The notes below the pieces were generated by a model that was not told the DNA's origin, ran no database searches, and saw only the letters and a list, made by a program, of their open reading frames with translations. Positions 19,104 through 23,682 of a stretch of 47,608 nucleotides of DNA are shown here, piece after piece (position 1 is the first letter of the stretch; each line of letters begins with the position of its first letter). This DNA is from Flavobacteriaceae bacterium (GTDB lineage Bacteria > Bacteroidota > Bacteroidia > Flavobacteriales > Flavobacteriaceae). The translations under genes were made by a program, and so were the position numbers. The stretch covers positions 1 to 47,608 of the forward strand of contig JADHML010000008.1 of NCBI GenBank assembly GCA_016780065.1, read 5' to 3'.

Positions 19104-20426
19104 TTACTCGCGAATAGATTGCAATTGTTTTTTGTGCATCCTGCGCAACAACAAGGCACCAACAAAAAAGAACGCCAAAAAGAACAGTATCGAATTACGC
19201 ATACTCCCTGTTATTTGATCAATTGTTCCGTACAAAATCATTCCTATAACAATGCCTAGTTTTTCAGAGACATCATAAAAGCTGAAATATGAAGTGGTGT
19301 CTTCTGTTTCAGGGATGAGTTTTGAATAAGTAGATCTTGCCAATGATTGTATTCCTCCCATTGATAAGCCAACCAAAGCCGCTGCTATGTAAAACTGCAA
19401 AGGAGTCACTACAAAATAAGCATACAGACATAAGAAAGCCCATACAAAGTTTAAAAAAATCAATACGGGCACATTTCCAAATCTCTCCGAAAACCTGGCA
19501 GTAAGTGTTGCACCTATGATTGCTATCAATTGTATGATCATAATACTCACAATGAGTCCTATGGTTTTTTGCCCCTCACCCCATGCAACTTCTTGTTCAC
19601 CAAAATAGGCTGCCACCAACATCACAGTTTGCAGGGCCATGCTAAAAACAAAGAAAGCGCCAATGTAACGCTTGAGATGTGGTAATCCTGAAAGACTATT
19701 CCATACAGAGCGAAGTTCTCTGTATCCGTTTAGTATAACATCGTTTGTCAACAAATTGTCCTTGTTTCCACGTGGTAGAAACCTAAAAGCAATCTGACTG
19801 AAACCGATCCACCATATACCAACAGAAACAAAAGAATATTTCATGGCTTTCATGGCTGCTACTCCCTCTGTCCCTGTAATACCAAACCATGAGGGATTTA
19901 ACACCATTGCTAGATTAAACAACAAGAGCAACACACTTCCGACATATCCCATTGAATAACCCAAAGCACTTGCTCTATCCATTTGTTCTGGGTGTGCGAT
20001 ATCTGGTAGATAAGAATTGTAAAACACCAAACTCGACCAAGCGCCTACGGAAGCCAAAAAATAAAACAATAAGCCTACATAAATACTTTCTAATTCAAAC
20101 CAATAAAGACCTGCGCACGATGCCGCGCCAAGGTAACAGAAGAATTGCATGAAGCGTTTTTTATTGCCCATGTAGTCTGCAATTCCTGAAAGAATCGGAG
20201 ATATCAAAGCAACTAAAGCAAATGCCGCTGCGGTTGTATAACTAATCAATGCGGTGTTTTTCATTGAGTAACCCAAGAAATCTATGTACAAGTCGTCCCC
20301 AAATAAAGCACCATAATAGATTGGAAATACTGTTGAAGTAATCACCAAAAAATAAACAGAGTTTGCCCAATCATATGACACCCAAGCGCGAATTAGACGC
20401 TTACTACCTTTTTCTAAATGCTTCAT
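19104..20426 (-). CDS. UMF1-type MFS permease
   Basis: Predicted inner-membrane transporter of the major facilitator superfamily, UMF1/Atg22-like branch; the substrate is unknown. The 440-residue protein has about 12 hydrophobic segments and the branch signature RAWVSYDWANSVYFLVITSTVFPIYY at the N-terminus, plus LSPILSGIADYMGNKKR after the third segment and QSLARSTYSKLIPETEDTTSYFSFYDVSEKLG late in the protein. The ATG at 20424-20426 is preferred over a TTG ten codons upstream. It is followed by lon after a 176-base A/T-rich gap and is divergent from the alpha/beta hydrolase. Confidence 0.88.
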   Translation of the reverse strand: MKHLEKGSKRLIRAWVSYDWANSVYFLVITSTVFPIYYGALFGDDLYIDFLGYSMKNTALISYTTAAAFALVALISPILSGIADYMGNKKRFMQFFCYLGAASCAGLYWFELESIYVGLLFYFLASVGAWSSLVFYNSYLPDIAHPEQMDRASALGYSMGYVGSVLLLLFNLAMVLNPSWFGITGTEGVAAMKAMKYSFVSVGIWWIGFSQIAFRFLPRGNKDNLLTNDVILNGYRELRSVWNSLSGLPHLKRYIGAFFVFSMALQTVMLVAAYFGEQEVAWGEGQKTIGLIVSIMIIQLIAIIGATLTARFSERFGNVPVLIFLNFVWAFLCLYAYFVVTPLQFYIAAALVGLSMGGIQSLARSTYSKLIPETEDTTSYFSFYDVSEKLGIVIGMILYGTIDQITGSMRNSILFFLAFFFVGALLLRRMHKKQLQSIRE

Positions 20427-20508: not shown

Positions 20509-21372
20509 ATGAAAAAAGAAAAAAGCTCAACTCCCTTCGAAGTACCTCCATTTATACGTTGGTGTGCACGCACTTCTGAGCGCATTTCACCGAGTCTGGC
20601 CACCCGTGTAGGTTTGCTTTTTTTCTTTAGACCTCAACGCTTTCCGACTCCCCATAGAGAGAAAGAGATGCTGGGAAAAAGTCAACAAAAAAAACTTACC
20701 ATACCATCGATAAAAAAAACCATTCATACCTATCAAATTCCCCAAAAAGGACAAAAAGTACTGCTTTTACACGGATGGAGTGGTCGAGCTACTCAGCTCT
20801 ATGCTATCGCGAAAACACTGAACGATTCTGGCATGGAAATTGTTTCATTTGATGCTCCTGCGCACGGGTCATCTGATGGTAAGACCACCAACATTGTGGA
20901 GTTTGTTGCTTGTGTTCACGAAGTTTATAAAAATTACGGGCCCTTTGATCATATTATTGGGCATTCTATGGGCGGCTTAGTGGCTCTTAATTCAGCTCGA
21001 GAAGGGTTGAAATTCAAAACCTTGACTGTGATTGGTTCAGGTGACAAGATTAAAAATGTGTTTTTAGATTACACTCGAAAAATGGAATTTACAGATCATA
21101 TTGCAGACCGTATGATTGGTGTCGTAGAAAAGCGCTTCAAAGGGTCTTTGGAGCATTATTCTGGCAGTCATTCAATAAAAAACCTTACGATTCCTGTTCA
21201 AATAGCCCATGATGAACAAGATTATGAAATCCCTGTTTCTTACGCTAAAGACCTACACAAAGCAAGTAAAAAAGGGCGCTTGACACTAACAAATGGTTTG
21301 GGTCATCGTCGCATCCTAAGAGATCGTGATTTGATAATGAAAATAACAAAGTTTATAAAATCAAACTCATGA
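20509..21372 (+). CDS. alpha/beta hydrolase
   Basis: Predicted serine hydrolase of unknown substrate. The 287-residue protein has HGWSGRATQLYAIAKTL (oxyanion-hole region), the nucleophile elbow GHSMGG, a later acid region HDEQDYEIPVSYA and the C-terminal catalytic His in GLGHRRILRD. No signal peptide is visible, although residues 25-50 (LATRVGLLFFFRPQRF) are hydrophobic and may associate with the membrane. The ATG at 20509 is chosen; a TTG three codons upstream is also open. The stop overlaps the first msrB start as ATGA, so the hydrolase and both MsrB genes look co-translated. Confidence 0.85.
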   Translation: MKKEKSSTPFEVPPFIRWCARTSERISPSLATRVGLLFFFRPQRFPTPHREKEMLGKSQQKKLTIPSIKKTIHTYQIPQKGQKVLLLHGWSGRATQLYAIAKTLNDSGMEIVSFDAPAHGSSDGKTTNIVEFVACVHEVYKNYGPFDHIIGHSMGGLVALNSAREGLKFKTLTVIGSGDKIKNVFLDYTRKMEFTDHIADRMIGVVEKRFKGSLEHYSGSHSIKNLTIPVQIAHDEQDYEIPVSYAKDLHKASKKGRLTLTNGLGHRRILRDRDLIMKITKFIKSNS

Positions 21373-21842
21373 GACTCTTATTTTACTTCATTCTTTTTGT
21401 AAGTTTTATAGGCTGCGCGCAAAGCTCCTCAACCAAAAAAAACGAATTTCCGTTAGTGAAAAGTGAAGCCCAATGGAAGGAACAACTTAGCCCAATGGCC
21501 TATTACGTGTTACGTCAGGCAGGCACTGAACGGGCGTTTAGCGGGACTTATAACAAGCATTACAAAAAAGGCACCTATCATTGTATGGGTTGCAACCAAG
21601 CCCTTTATCAATCTACAAACAAGTATGATTCAGGAAGCGGATGGCCTTCTTTTGATCGGGCGATAAAAGAAGCGGTGGTTTTTGATGTAGATTATAAAAT
21701 TGGGTATGCACGAACCGAACTGTTATGCGCTCAGTGCGGGGGACATTTAGGACATATGTTTGAAGATGGGCCCAAAAACACCACTGGTAAACGACATTGT
21801 ATCAATTCAGCCGCACTAAAATTTGTTGCTAAAAATGAGTGA
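21369..21842 (+). CDS. msrB: lipoprotein MsrB, methionine-R-sulfoxide reductase
   Basis: Reduces methionine R-sulfoxide in proteins. The 157-residue protein begins with a lipoprotein signal (residues 1-15, lipobox FIGC with Cys16), so the enzyme should sit outside the cytoplasm, anchored to a membrane. Zinc ligands are Cys72/Cys75 (CMGC) and Cys120/Cys123 (CAQC), the latter in ELLCAQCGGHLGHMFEDGP; the catalytic cysteine is Cys144 in RHCINS. The position that holds the resolving cysteine in many MsrBs is Ser90 here (SGSGWPSF). It overlaps the hydrolase before it by 4 bases and the second msrB after it by 8 bases. Confidence 0.93.
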   Translation: MRLLFYFILFVSFIGCAQSSSTKKNEFPLVKSEAQWKEQLSPMAYYVLRQAGTERAFSGTYNKHYKKGTYHCMGCNQALYQSTNKYDSGSGWPSFDRAIKEAVVFDVDYKIGYARTELLCAQCGGHLGHMFEDGPKNTTGKRHCINSAALKFVAKNE

Positions 21843-22233
21843 TTACCCTATTAAAAAAAGTGAAGAGGCTTGGAAGCTTATGCTTTCTGAGGAAGCCTAC
21901 AGAGTACTAAGAAAAAAAGGAACTGAATACCCACATACTGGTGCCTACAATCTTCATTTTGAATCAGGGACCTATGTATGTAAAGGATGTAATACGCCTC
22001 TGTTTGAAAGTAATTCCAAATTCGAAAGTGGCTGTGGCTGGCCTAGTTTTTCAGATGCCATTGATGGAAGTATTCGATATGAGATGGACAAATCACACGG
22101 GATGATTCGCACAGAAATTCTTTGTTCCCATTGTGGTGGTCATCTTGGGCATGTGTTTGACGATGGACCAACTCCTACTCACAAACGTTATTGTGTCAAT
22201 TCAGTTAGCTTGGATTTTAAAGAGTCATCATAG
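21835..22233 (+). CDS. msrB: cytoplasmic MsrB, methionine-R-sulfoxide reductase
   Basis: Second MsrB, 132 residues, without a signal peptide, so cytoplasmic. Zinc ligands are Cys49/Cys52 (CKGC) and Cys97/Cys100 (CSHC); the catalytic cysteine is Cys120 in RYCVNS. Unlike the first copy it keeps a cysteine at Cys67 (SGCGWPSF), 53 residues before the catalytic one, the place of the resolving cysteine in thioredoxin-recycled MsrBs. The start is the ATG at 21835, which overlaps the first msrB; an upstream TTG at 21823 is less likely. The two proteins align over their whole catalytic length and are probably ancient duplicates rather than a recent copy. Confidence 0.95.
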   Translation: MSDYPIKKSEEAWKLMLSEEAYRVLRKKGTEYPHTGAYNLHFESGTYVCKGCNTPLFESNSKFESGCGWPSFSDAIDGSIRYEMDKSHGMIRTEILCSHCGGHLGHVFDDGPTPTHKRYCVNSVSLDFKESS

Positions 22234-22290: not shown

Positions 22291-23682
22291 ATGAGCAAAT
22301 TTGATGTTATTGTACTTGGTAGTGGACCTGGTGGATATGTAACTGCCATACGTGCGTCTCAGTTAGGACTTAAAACTGCCATTATTGAAAAAGAAAGCTT
22401 AGGAGGTGTTTGCCTAAATTGGGGTTGTATTCCAACTAAAGCATTAATCAAATCAGCACAAGTTTTTAACTACCTCAAACATGCAGAGGATTATGGCCTA
22501 AAAGTTGAAAGCTATGATAAAGATTTTGATGCTGTAGTAAATCGCAGCCGATCTGTTGCTGATACAATGAGCAAGGGGGTTCAATTTTTGATGAAAAAAA
22601 ATAAAATTGAAGTCATTTTAGGTTTTGGAAGTTTAAGAAAAGGCAAGCAAGTTGCTGTGACTGCGGAAGATGGGACAGAAACCCTCCACGAAGCCAATCA
22701 TATTATAATTGCTACTGGAGCGCGTTCGCGCGAGTTACCCAGCCTTCCTCAAGATGGAAAAAAAGTCATTGGATATAGAGAGGCCATGACCTTGCCCAAA
22801 CAACCTAAAAAGATGGTCGTAGTTGGTTCTGGAGCGATTGGTGTTGAATTTGCCTACTTCTACAACGCAATGGGAACAGAAGTAACCCTAATAGAGTATT
22901 TACCTAGGATTGTTCCTGTGGAAGATGAAGACATATCCAAACAGATGGAACGCAGCTTTACTAAAAGCGGAATAAAGGTAATGACAAACTCTGAAGTCAC
23001 TGAAGTTGACACATCAGGAAAAGGAGTCAAAGTCTCTGTTAAAACAGTTAAAGGCAAGGAAATCATTGATGCTGATATCGTTCTTTCTGCTGTTGGAATC
23101 AAAACCAACATTGAAAATATTGGACTTGAAGATTTGGGGATTGCTACTGATCGAGACAAAATCTTGGTTAATGAGTATTACCAAACCAATCTGCCAGGGT
23201 ACTATGCTATCGGAGATGTAACTTCTGGTCAAGCATTGGCTCACGTGGCATCAGCTGAAGGGATCTTGTGTGTTGAAAAAATTGCAGGTCTTTCTGTAGA
23301 ACCTATTGACTATAACAACATTCCGGGTTGTACTTACAGTCATCCCGAAATTGCATCGGTAGGTTATACAGAGGCTCAAGCCAAAGAACAGGGCTTTGAT
23401 ATTAAAGTAGGAAAGTTTCCATTTACTGCTTCAGGAAAGGCACAGGCCGGAGGTCATACAGACGGTTTTGTCAAAGTGATTTTTGATGCCAAATACGGAG
23501 AATGGCTCGGGTGCCATATGATCGGATCTGGAGTAACTGACATGATTGCAGAAGCTGTAGTAGCTAGAAAACTTGAGACCACAGGTCACGAAATTCTTAA
23601 AGCTGTGCATCCGCATCCTACCATGAGCGAAGCGGTGATGGAAGCAGTCGCTGCAGCATATGATGAAGTGATACACATATAA
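22291..23682 (+). CDS. lpdA: dihydrolipoyl dehydrogenase (E3)
   Basis: FAD enzyme that reoxidises dihydrolipoyl groups of the 2-oxoacid dehydrogenase complexes and the glycine cleavage system. The 463-residue protein has the FAD motif VIVLGSGPGGYVTAIRA, the redox-active disulfide Cys41/Cys46 in GGVCLNWGCIPTK, the NAD-binding GSGAIGVEFAYFYNAMG, the second FAD segment YYAIGDVTSG and the C-terminal catalytic His in HPHPTMSEAV. Length is normal. No E1 or E2 gene is adjacent, so it probably serves several complexes. It has its own promoter box and a strong terminator. Confidence 0.96.
   Translation: MSKFDVIVLGSGPGGYVTAIRASQLGLKTAIIEKESLGGVCLNWGCIPTKALIKSAQVFNYLKHAEDYGLKVESYDKDFDAVVNRSRSVADTMSKGVQFLMKKNKIEVILGFGSLRKGKQVAVTAEDGTETLHEANHIIIATGARSRELPSLPQDGKKVIGYREAMTLPKQPKKMVVVGSGAIGVEFAYFYNAMGTEVTLIEYLPRIVPVEDEDISKQMERSFTKSGIKVMTNSEVTEVDTSGKGVKVSVKTVKGKEIIDADIVLSAVGIKTNIENIGLEDLGIATDRDKILVNEYYQTNLPGYYAIGDVTSGQALAHVASAEGILCVEKIAGLSVEPIDYNNIPGCTYSHPEIASVGYTEAQAKEQGFDIKVGKFPFTASGKAQAGGHTDGFVKVIFDAKYGEWLGCHMIGSGVTDMIAEAVVARKLETTGHEILKAVHPHPTMSEAVMEAVAAAYDEVIHI

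Follow-up and report, generated by a model that had tools for sequence, protein, structure and literature searches.

Tandem msrB genes in a Flavobacteriaceae genome encode a predicted 1-Cys lipoprotein and a predicted 2-Cys cytosolic enzyme

The chemistry of 1-Cys MsrBs is already known from plants, ciliates and mammals. Ciliate En-MsrB2/B3, mammalian MsrB2 and the plant chloroplast form carry Ser or Thr in place of the resolving cysteine, without a substitute. Two recycling routes for 1-Cys MsrBs are given in excerpts of PMC5371997, namely direct reduction by thioredoxin, or reduction by glutathione and glutaredoxin. Human MsrB3 (6qa0, 6q9v) is located in the endoplasmic reticulum, an oxidizing compartment, and has a Ser at the position of Cys63, the usual resolving cysteine; according to excerpts of PMC7475093, it has an N-terminal CX5C resolving pair, and the MsrB of Burkholderia pseudomallei (3cez, 3cxk) has a core resolving cysteine. 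MsrBs of the E. coli 2-Cys type (6sym) display GCGWP and RYCVN motifs and a zinc site. Neisseria PilB reportedly combines MsrA and MsrB in a single polypeptide. PilB MsrAB and the pneumococcal SpMsrAB2 are Msr enzymes that work outside the cytosol with a DsbD/CcdA-type relay; SpMsrAB2, an extracytoplasmic protein in which MsrA and MsrB are joined, receives its electrons from CcdA and lipoproteins with a thioredoxin fold, and its intramolecular disulfide accumulates in donor double mutants (excerpts of PMC3914529).

This work describes a locus in a window of 47,608 nucleotides, the whole stretch of DNA that was analyzed (assembly GCA_016780065.1, contig JADHML010000008.1), from a Flavobacteriaceae genome of 1.02 Mb that is 58% complete. 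Two msrB genes on its forward strand overlap by 8 bases. The first (positions 21,369 to 21,842) encodes a predicted lipoprotein MsrB of 157 aa (PF01641, E 7.2e-48) and the second (ATG at 21,835, stop codon ending at 22,233) a cytosolic MsrB of 132 aa (PF01641, E 3.5e-51). In a profile search, both proteins scored above the curated cutoffs of TIGR00357 and PF01641 with the whole domain covered, and both have the catalytic cysteine in an RxCxN motif as well as two zinc CxxC motifs. The best named relatives of the lipoprotein belong to the Flavobacteriaceae, e.g. Winogradskyella. The locus further contains a divergent gene for an ATG22/MFS-type transporter (19,104 to 20,426, reverse strand; PF11700, E 1.1e-70; start checked), which marks the conserved locus, and the dihydrolipoyl dehydrogenase gene lpd as conserved downstream neighbor (22,291 to 23,682, forward strand; TIGR01350, 575 bits against a cutoff of 408.8).

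The cysteines of the lipoprotein are located at positions 16, 72, 75, 120, 123 and 144. Cys16 (codon 21,414 to 21,416) is the predicted lipid anchor in a lipobox (SFIGC), Cys72/75 and Cys120/123 make up the two zinc motifs, and Cys144 (21,798 to 21,800) is the catalytic cysteine in KRHCIN. The zinc and catalytic cysteines are invariant in an alignment of the lipoprotein with 17 relatives, and Cys16 is nearly invariant. The N-terminal sequence MRLLFYFILFVSFIGC combines a basic N-terminus, a hydrophobic stretch and the lipobox cysteine, in agreement with the lipobox rule. At the Cys63-equivalent position, Ser90 (21,636 to 21,638) precedes GWPS. The cytosolic enzyme has cysteines at positions 49, 52, 67, 97, 100 and 120; here Cys67 (22,033 to 22,035) precedes GWPS in GCGWPSF, and the catalytic Cys120 (22,192 to 22,194) lies in KRYCVN. 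The distance from the resolving position to the catalytic cysteine is 54 residues in the lipoprotein (Ser90 to Cys144) versus 53 in the cytosolic enzyme (Cys67 to Cys120), a difference that goes along with a loop one residue longer ahead of Cys144 (GPKNTTGKRHC) than ahead of Cys120 (GPTPTHKRYC). The reading frames, coordinates, residues and spacings of the overlapping pair thus agree with those given in a first-pass annotation of the window.

Inspection of the whole cysteine inventory of the lipoprotein revealed no Cys at the Cys63 position, no alternative free cysteine and no N-terminal CX5C pair of the human MsrB3 type. Since only lipid-anchor, zinc and catalytic cysteines are present, the lipoprotein is, judged from its sequence, a 1-Cys MsrB and a member of an already known subclass, while its partner is predicted to be a 2-Cys MsrB with Cys67 as resolving and Cys120 as catalytic cysteine. 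The first-pass annotation had reasoned that the exported enzyme cannot use the same disulfide recycling and would need another cysteine or a direct reductant. The former follows from Ser90. Recourse to another cysteine is improbable, as none is free; without a resolving or other free cysteine, the usual disulfide step is unavailable and an outside reductant would be needed.

The fold of the lipoprotein was compared with solved structures. Its AlphaFold model (mean pLDDT 92.4) is closest in fold to the MsrB of B. pseudomallei (3cez; Z 25.6, 0.9 Å over 129 residues), which differs by its core resolving cysteine. A sequence comparison ranks human MsrB3 first among solved structures (E 1.5e-39), and the model superimposes on 6q9v with Z 23.8 and 1.7 Å over 135 residues. 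The lipoprotein shares the Ser at the Cys63 position and, by its predicted export, an oxidizing compartment with human MsrB3, and differs in the CX5C pair. It resembles the ciliate, mammalian and plant 1-Cys MsrBs in its Ser and the lack of a substitute, but is distinguished from them as a bacterial lipoprotein with a His before the catalytic cysteine and a loop one residue longer than that of its tandem partner. This partner is similar to the E. coli type in its GCGWP and RYCVN motifs and zinc site, and is different in that it occurs in tandem with an exported paralogue. The window pair also differs from SpMsrAB2, in which MsrA and MsrB are fused.

Our main reading, to which we assign a probability of roughly 0.6, is that the tandem paralogues serve two jobs, with the lipoprotein as a 1-Cys enzyme that is reduced directly by a DsbD-fed envelope partner and the cytosolic protein as a 2-Cys enzyme. 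The export and activity of the lipoprotein, its recycling chemistry and the identity of its reductant we infer as follows. The product of the first gene would be a lipoprotein that repairs envelope proteins by reduction of their methionine-R-sulfoxide, and that of the second a standard 2-Cys MsrB in the cytosol. In the latter, Cys120 would be converted to a sulfenic acid, Cys67 would resolve it to a disulfide, and thioredoxin would reduce this disulfide. Cys144 of the lipoprotein would likewise become a sulfenic acid, which no cysteine of the enzyme could resolve. It would most likely be reduced directly by a DsbD-fed partner with a thioredoxin fold in the envelope, either the C-terminal domain of DsbD or a TlpA-like lipoprotein, and this would be the simplest route. 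The direct reduction of 1-Cys MsrBs by thioredoxin and the relay that serves SpMsrAB2, both cited above, are precedents for it. In a human MsrB3 double resolving mutant, mixed disulfides with thioredoxin persist but are much reduced (excerpts of PMC6488974); such weakened formation of mixed disulfides implies that direct reduction may be slow. The window pair offers a natural side-by-side comparison of a 1-Cys and a 2-Cys MsrB in one operon.

To place the pair in its family, MsrB was searched in 149 genomes (the source genome and 148 others) and was present in all 149. Seventy of the 148 genomes were used, selected from G001-G090 at ≥ 91% completeness and ≤ 3% contamination; G091-G148 and the remainder of G001-G090 were left out. 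The 137 matches in these 70 genomes and the two window genes gave 139 rows, from which two fragments without GWP motif (in G004 and G080) were dropped, leaving 137 rows. Four MsrB types were distinguished by export, by an N-terminal motif and by which residue occupies position 63, with export called by a hydropathy and lipobox rule rather than a trained predictor. The rows comprise 60 exported Thr/Ser forms (including the window lipoprotein), 28 cytosolic Cys63 forms (including the window partner), 12 exported Cys63 forms and 37 msrA-linked cytosolic forms. The last type starts with MLTWK, has Thr/Ser at position 63, and in 34 of its 37 loci lies immediately upstream of msrA. In all 37 rows of this type there is an additional cysteine at alignment column 32, ten columns ahead of the first zinc cysteine; the window lipoprotein has none in this column. 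This residue may correspond to the alternative resolving Cys31 of Xanthomonas campestris MsrB. A candidate resolving cysteine is thereby present in 65 of 65 cytosolic family rows, 28 times as Cys63 (by definition of the type) and 37 times as the extra cysteine. Downstream of cytosolic msrB-msrA, a glutaredoxin-like gene was observed in 7/37 loci and a WCPGC redoxin-like gene in 5/37 (e.g. L053, L058, L074, L077, L121); both are possible electron donors of the msrA-linked type.

Candidate partners for the lipoprotein are encoded in the source genome. They are a DsbD composed of an N-terminal, a membrane and a thioredoxin-like (CVNC) part, and a TlpA-like protein that contains WCKPC and begins with a lipobox-like sequence. 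One MsrA was found in this partial genome, and it begins right at the catalytic domain. DsbD_TM was detected in 70 of the 70 sampled family genomes, including those with an exported Cys63 MsrB, and its presence therefore does not single out the 1-Cys form; as a marker for this form, DsbD co-occurrence was discarded as uninformative. A pattern scan of the neighbors yielded no thioredoxin-like CxxC protein at lipoprotein-type loci, a result that tells slightly against the main reading. The lipoprotein could alternatively be recycled via a low-molecular-weight thiol, in which case the sulfenic acid would be converted to a mixed disulfide that a glutaredoxin-like or thioredoxin-fold protein removes. 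Although small thiols represent one of the two routes in the excerpts of PMC5371997, glutaredoxin-like neighbors were seen only at unlinked cytosolic msrB-msrA loci (the seven above) and not at lipoprotein loci, and we consider this route quite improbable. Direct reduction by a DsbD-fed partner is the reading retained below.

Among the exported Thr/Ser rows, the lipobox rule holds for 57 of 60 and the remaining three have a hydrophobic N-terminus; exactly five domain cysteines are present in 57/60, and a further cysteine after the lipobox one occurs in 1 of the 57 rows that pass the lipobox rule. A His precedes the catalytic cysteine in 55/60 of these rows versus 2/77 of the other family rows. 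The longer loop before the catalytic cysteine is found in 53/60 exported Thr/Ser rows, 4/28 cytosolic Cys63 rows and 6/12 exported Cys63 rows. That exported Thr/Ser rows have Thr/Ser is circular by the definition of the type; the findings are the shared His and their position in a tree from which the key residues were masked. In this family tree, the 58 usable exported Thr/Ser rows make up one side of a supported branch. In two larger trees the exported Thr/Ser grouping is imperfect and takes two changes in one and three in the other. All tree alignments have fewer than 135 columns, and few forks are supported. A supported set of 103 rows in the wider tree (58 exported Thr/Ser, 28 cytosolic Cys63, 9 exported Cys63 and 8 rows from a phylum sample) fits an old duplication.

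A tandem msrB pair occurs in 27 of the 70 family genomes, and 25 of these 27 show the same split into an exported Thr/Ser and a cytosolic Cys63 form, so the arrangement in the window is not due to chance. In 19 of the 29 pairs (with the window included and one genome contributing two pairs), the second gene has an ATG that lies 0-20 bases within the first. Two genomes are exceptions to the split: in G043 the first gene encodes a Cys63 lipoprotein, and in G004 (locus L036) the first gene has diverged strongly, with a score of 74 bits and without the GWP motif, and is followed by an exported Cys63 form. Among classed genes, 67/70 genomes have exactly one exported MsrB and 62/70 exactly one cytosolic MsrB. 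Just one genome has both the cytosolic Cys63 and the msrA-linked type; 26 have the former alone, 36 the latter alone and 7 neither (Fisher p 9e-12, uncorrected for kinship). Given this near-exclusion across genomes, the second gene of the tandem seems to substitute for the msrA-linked enzyme. No genome combines the two exported types, with exported Thr/Ser alone in 57 genomes, exported Cys63 alone in 12, and neither in one. The seven genomes without a cytosolic MsrB carry an exported Cys63 form (G004 also has an unclassed fragment). In L065, L068, L087, L097 and L102, exported Cys63 MsrBs stand beside the ATG22-type gene, an M48 peptidase gene and/or lpd in genomes from which the 1-Cys lipoprotein is absent, a pattern that would arise if the first gene of the tandem was lost and the second then acquired a signal peptide. 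A further observation concerns L062 (G023), where MsrA and MsrB are encoded in one frame as a lipoprotein without zinc cysteines, the sole SelR match in that genome.

These counts show, at the level of the family, which type of MsrB serves in the cytosol and which in the envelope. The gene pair is well conserved and mostly ordinary. A literature search, with most subscription journals outside its reach, returned no paper on a lipoprotein/cytosolic MsrB pair; the tandem arrangement and slot pattern may be undescribed, but are modest. In a broader and decidedly tentative reading, which we hold to be possible but doubtful, the exported MsrBs of Flavobacteriaceae would mostly form a 1-Cys class of their own, with Thr/Ser at Cys63, a His preceding the catalytic cysteine and usually the longer loop. 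This class would be adapted to having its sulfenic acid reduced directly by DsbD/TlpA-type partners in the envelope and, lacking a second cysteine, would be spared unwanted disulfides in that oxidizing compartment. Most genomes would then have one exported and one cytosolic slot, and for each slot there would be two alternative types, hardly ever found in the same genome.

Whether loss of Cys63 follows export was considered in the family and in a wider sample. A phylum search covered 99 genomes, and 89 of the listed matches were read, being the 29 top-scoring loci and 60 hand-picked roughly by score; five rows whose N-terminus could not be placed were dropped, leaving 84, one of which (L236) is from the family itself. 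Cys63 is kept in 12/72 exported forms of the family sample and in 24/53 exported rows of the phylum sample. The general rule that an exported MsrB loses its resolving cysteine was therefore rejected, and the split by location and redox chemistry that the first-pass annotation had noted for this pair is not supported as a general link. Even lipoproteins in the same gene slot retain the residue: those of G043 and L147 are 62 and 63% identical to the window lipoprotein and have a Cys at the Ser90 position, as does the exported first gene product of L157 (59% identical). All three keep the His before the catalytic cysteine. Gene conversion between tandem copies as the source of their Cys63 was set aside, as no long tract was visible by eye and the flanks are of the lipoprotein type, although a short tract is possible. 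The other 29 of the 53 exported phylum rows have neither Cys63 nor a Cys31-like residue; they contain five domain cysteines in 17 cases, four in one and six or seven in 11, and hence are not all 1-Cys. The 31 cytosolic phylum rows comprise 9 with Cys63, 15 with a Cys31-like residue and 7 with neither.

The frequency of Cys63 among exported forms, including those in the same slot, fits a reading in which the site tolerates all three residues, the choice of Ser/Thr or Cys reflects drift between lineages and has no functional bearing on export, and either form can be recycled by any donor with a thioredoxin fold. The trees leave room for it, since Cys63 and export give just 4 independent comparisons on supported branches (17 on all branches) without significance, and a test on 4 comparisons cannot reach significance. 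The distribution of the His before the catalytic cysteine, however, points to an active site that is distinctive as a whole, and the candidate resolving cysteine is retained in every cytosolic family row, yet not in the seven cytosolic phylum rows with neither residue. On balance, we regard drift as unlikely and a 1-Cys lipoprotein recycled by an envelope partner as the better reading. Together with its relatives, in which this slot carries Cys, Ser or Thr at the decisive position, the pair lends itself to studying why the resolving cysteine has been dropped in some methionine repair enzymes that work outside the cytosol.

Neighboring genes were counted within ~3 kb at 73 loci that are not msrA-linked, the window included; all counts are lower bounds, as the stretches were cut off at 3 kb or by the end of a contig. 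lpd was present at at least 50/73 loci, the ATG22-type gene at at least 42/73 and aroQ at at least 24/73, and neither lpd nor the ATG22-type gene was found at any of the 37 msrA-linked loci. As the commonest neighbor, lpd was considered as electron donor and rejected, as it also lies beside exported Cys63 forms and no other support was found. In the window, an alpha/beta hydrolase gene (20,509 to 21,372, forward strand; Pfam Abhydrolase_6, E 5.2e-12; GHSMGG motif) overlaps the start of the lipoprotein msrB by 4 bases (21,369 to 21,372), and the first-pass annotation had suggested joint repair of damaged envelope molecules. Such an envelope-repair operon, in which the hydrolase and the lipoprotein act together, could draw on this overlap, on the 8/73 loci (window included) where a hydrolase adjoins MsrB, and on six more distant hydrolases of the same cluster (single linkage), which lie downstream of unlinked msrB-msrA loci at a distance of 0.6 to 2.4 kb. 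No hydrolase was found within ~3 kb at the other 65/73 loci, however, and the N-terminus of the window hydrolase has no clear signal peptide, with a highest 11-residue hydropathy of 1.84 in its first stretch. Other genes are commoner at MsrB loci, namely those for an M48 metallopeptidase (38 loci), a small lipoprotein-like protein (29) and a DUF1572 protein (20). A conserved operon link was rejected on these counts, the hydrolase is best seen as an occasional neighbor, and we give hardly any credence to joint repair. The M48 gene is divergent, lies upstream of MsrB and is absent beside the window pair; the one member that was checked has a lipoprotein-like start. The small lipoprotein-like protein (31 proteins) is encoded mostly upstream of MsrB and often contains a short collagen-like GPPG run (e.g. 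L123, L127, L129, L141).
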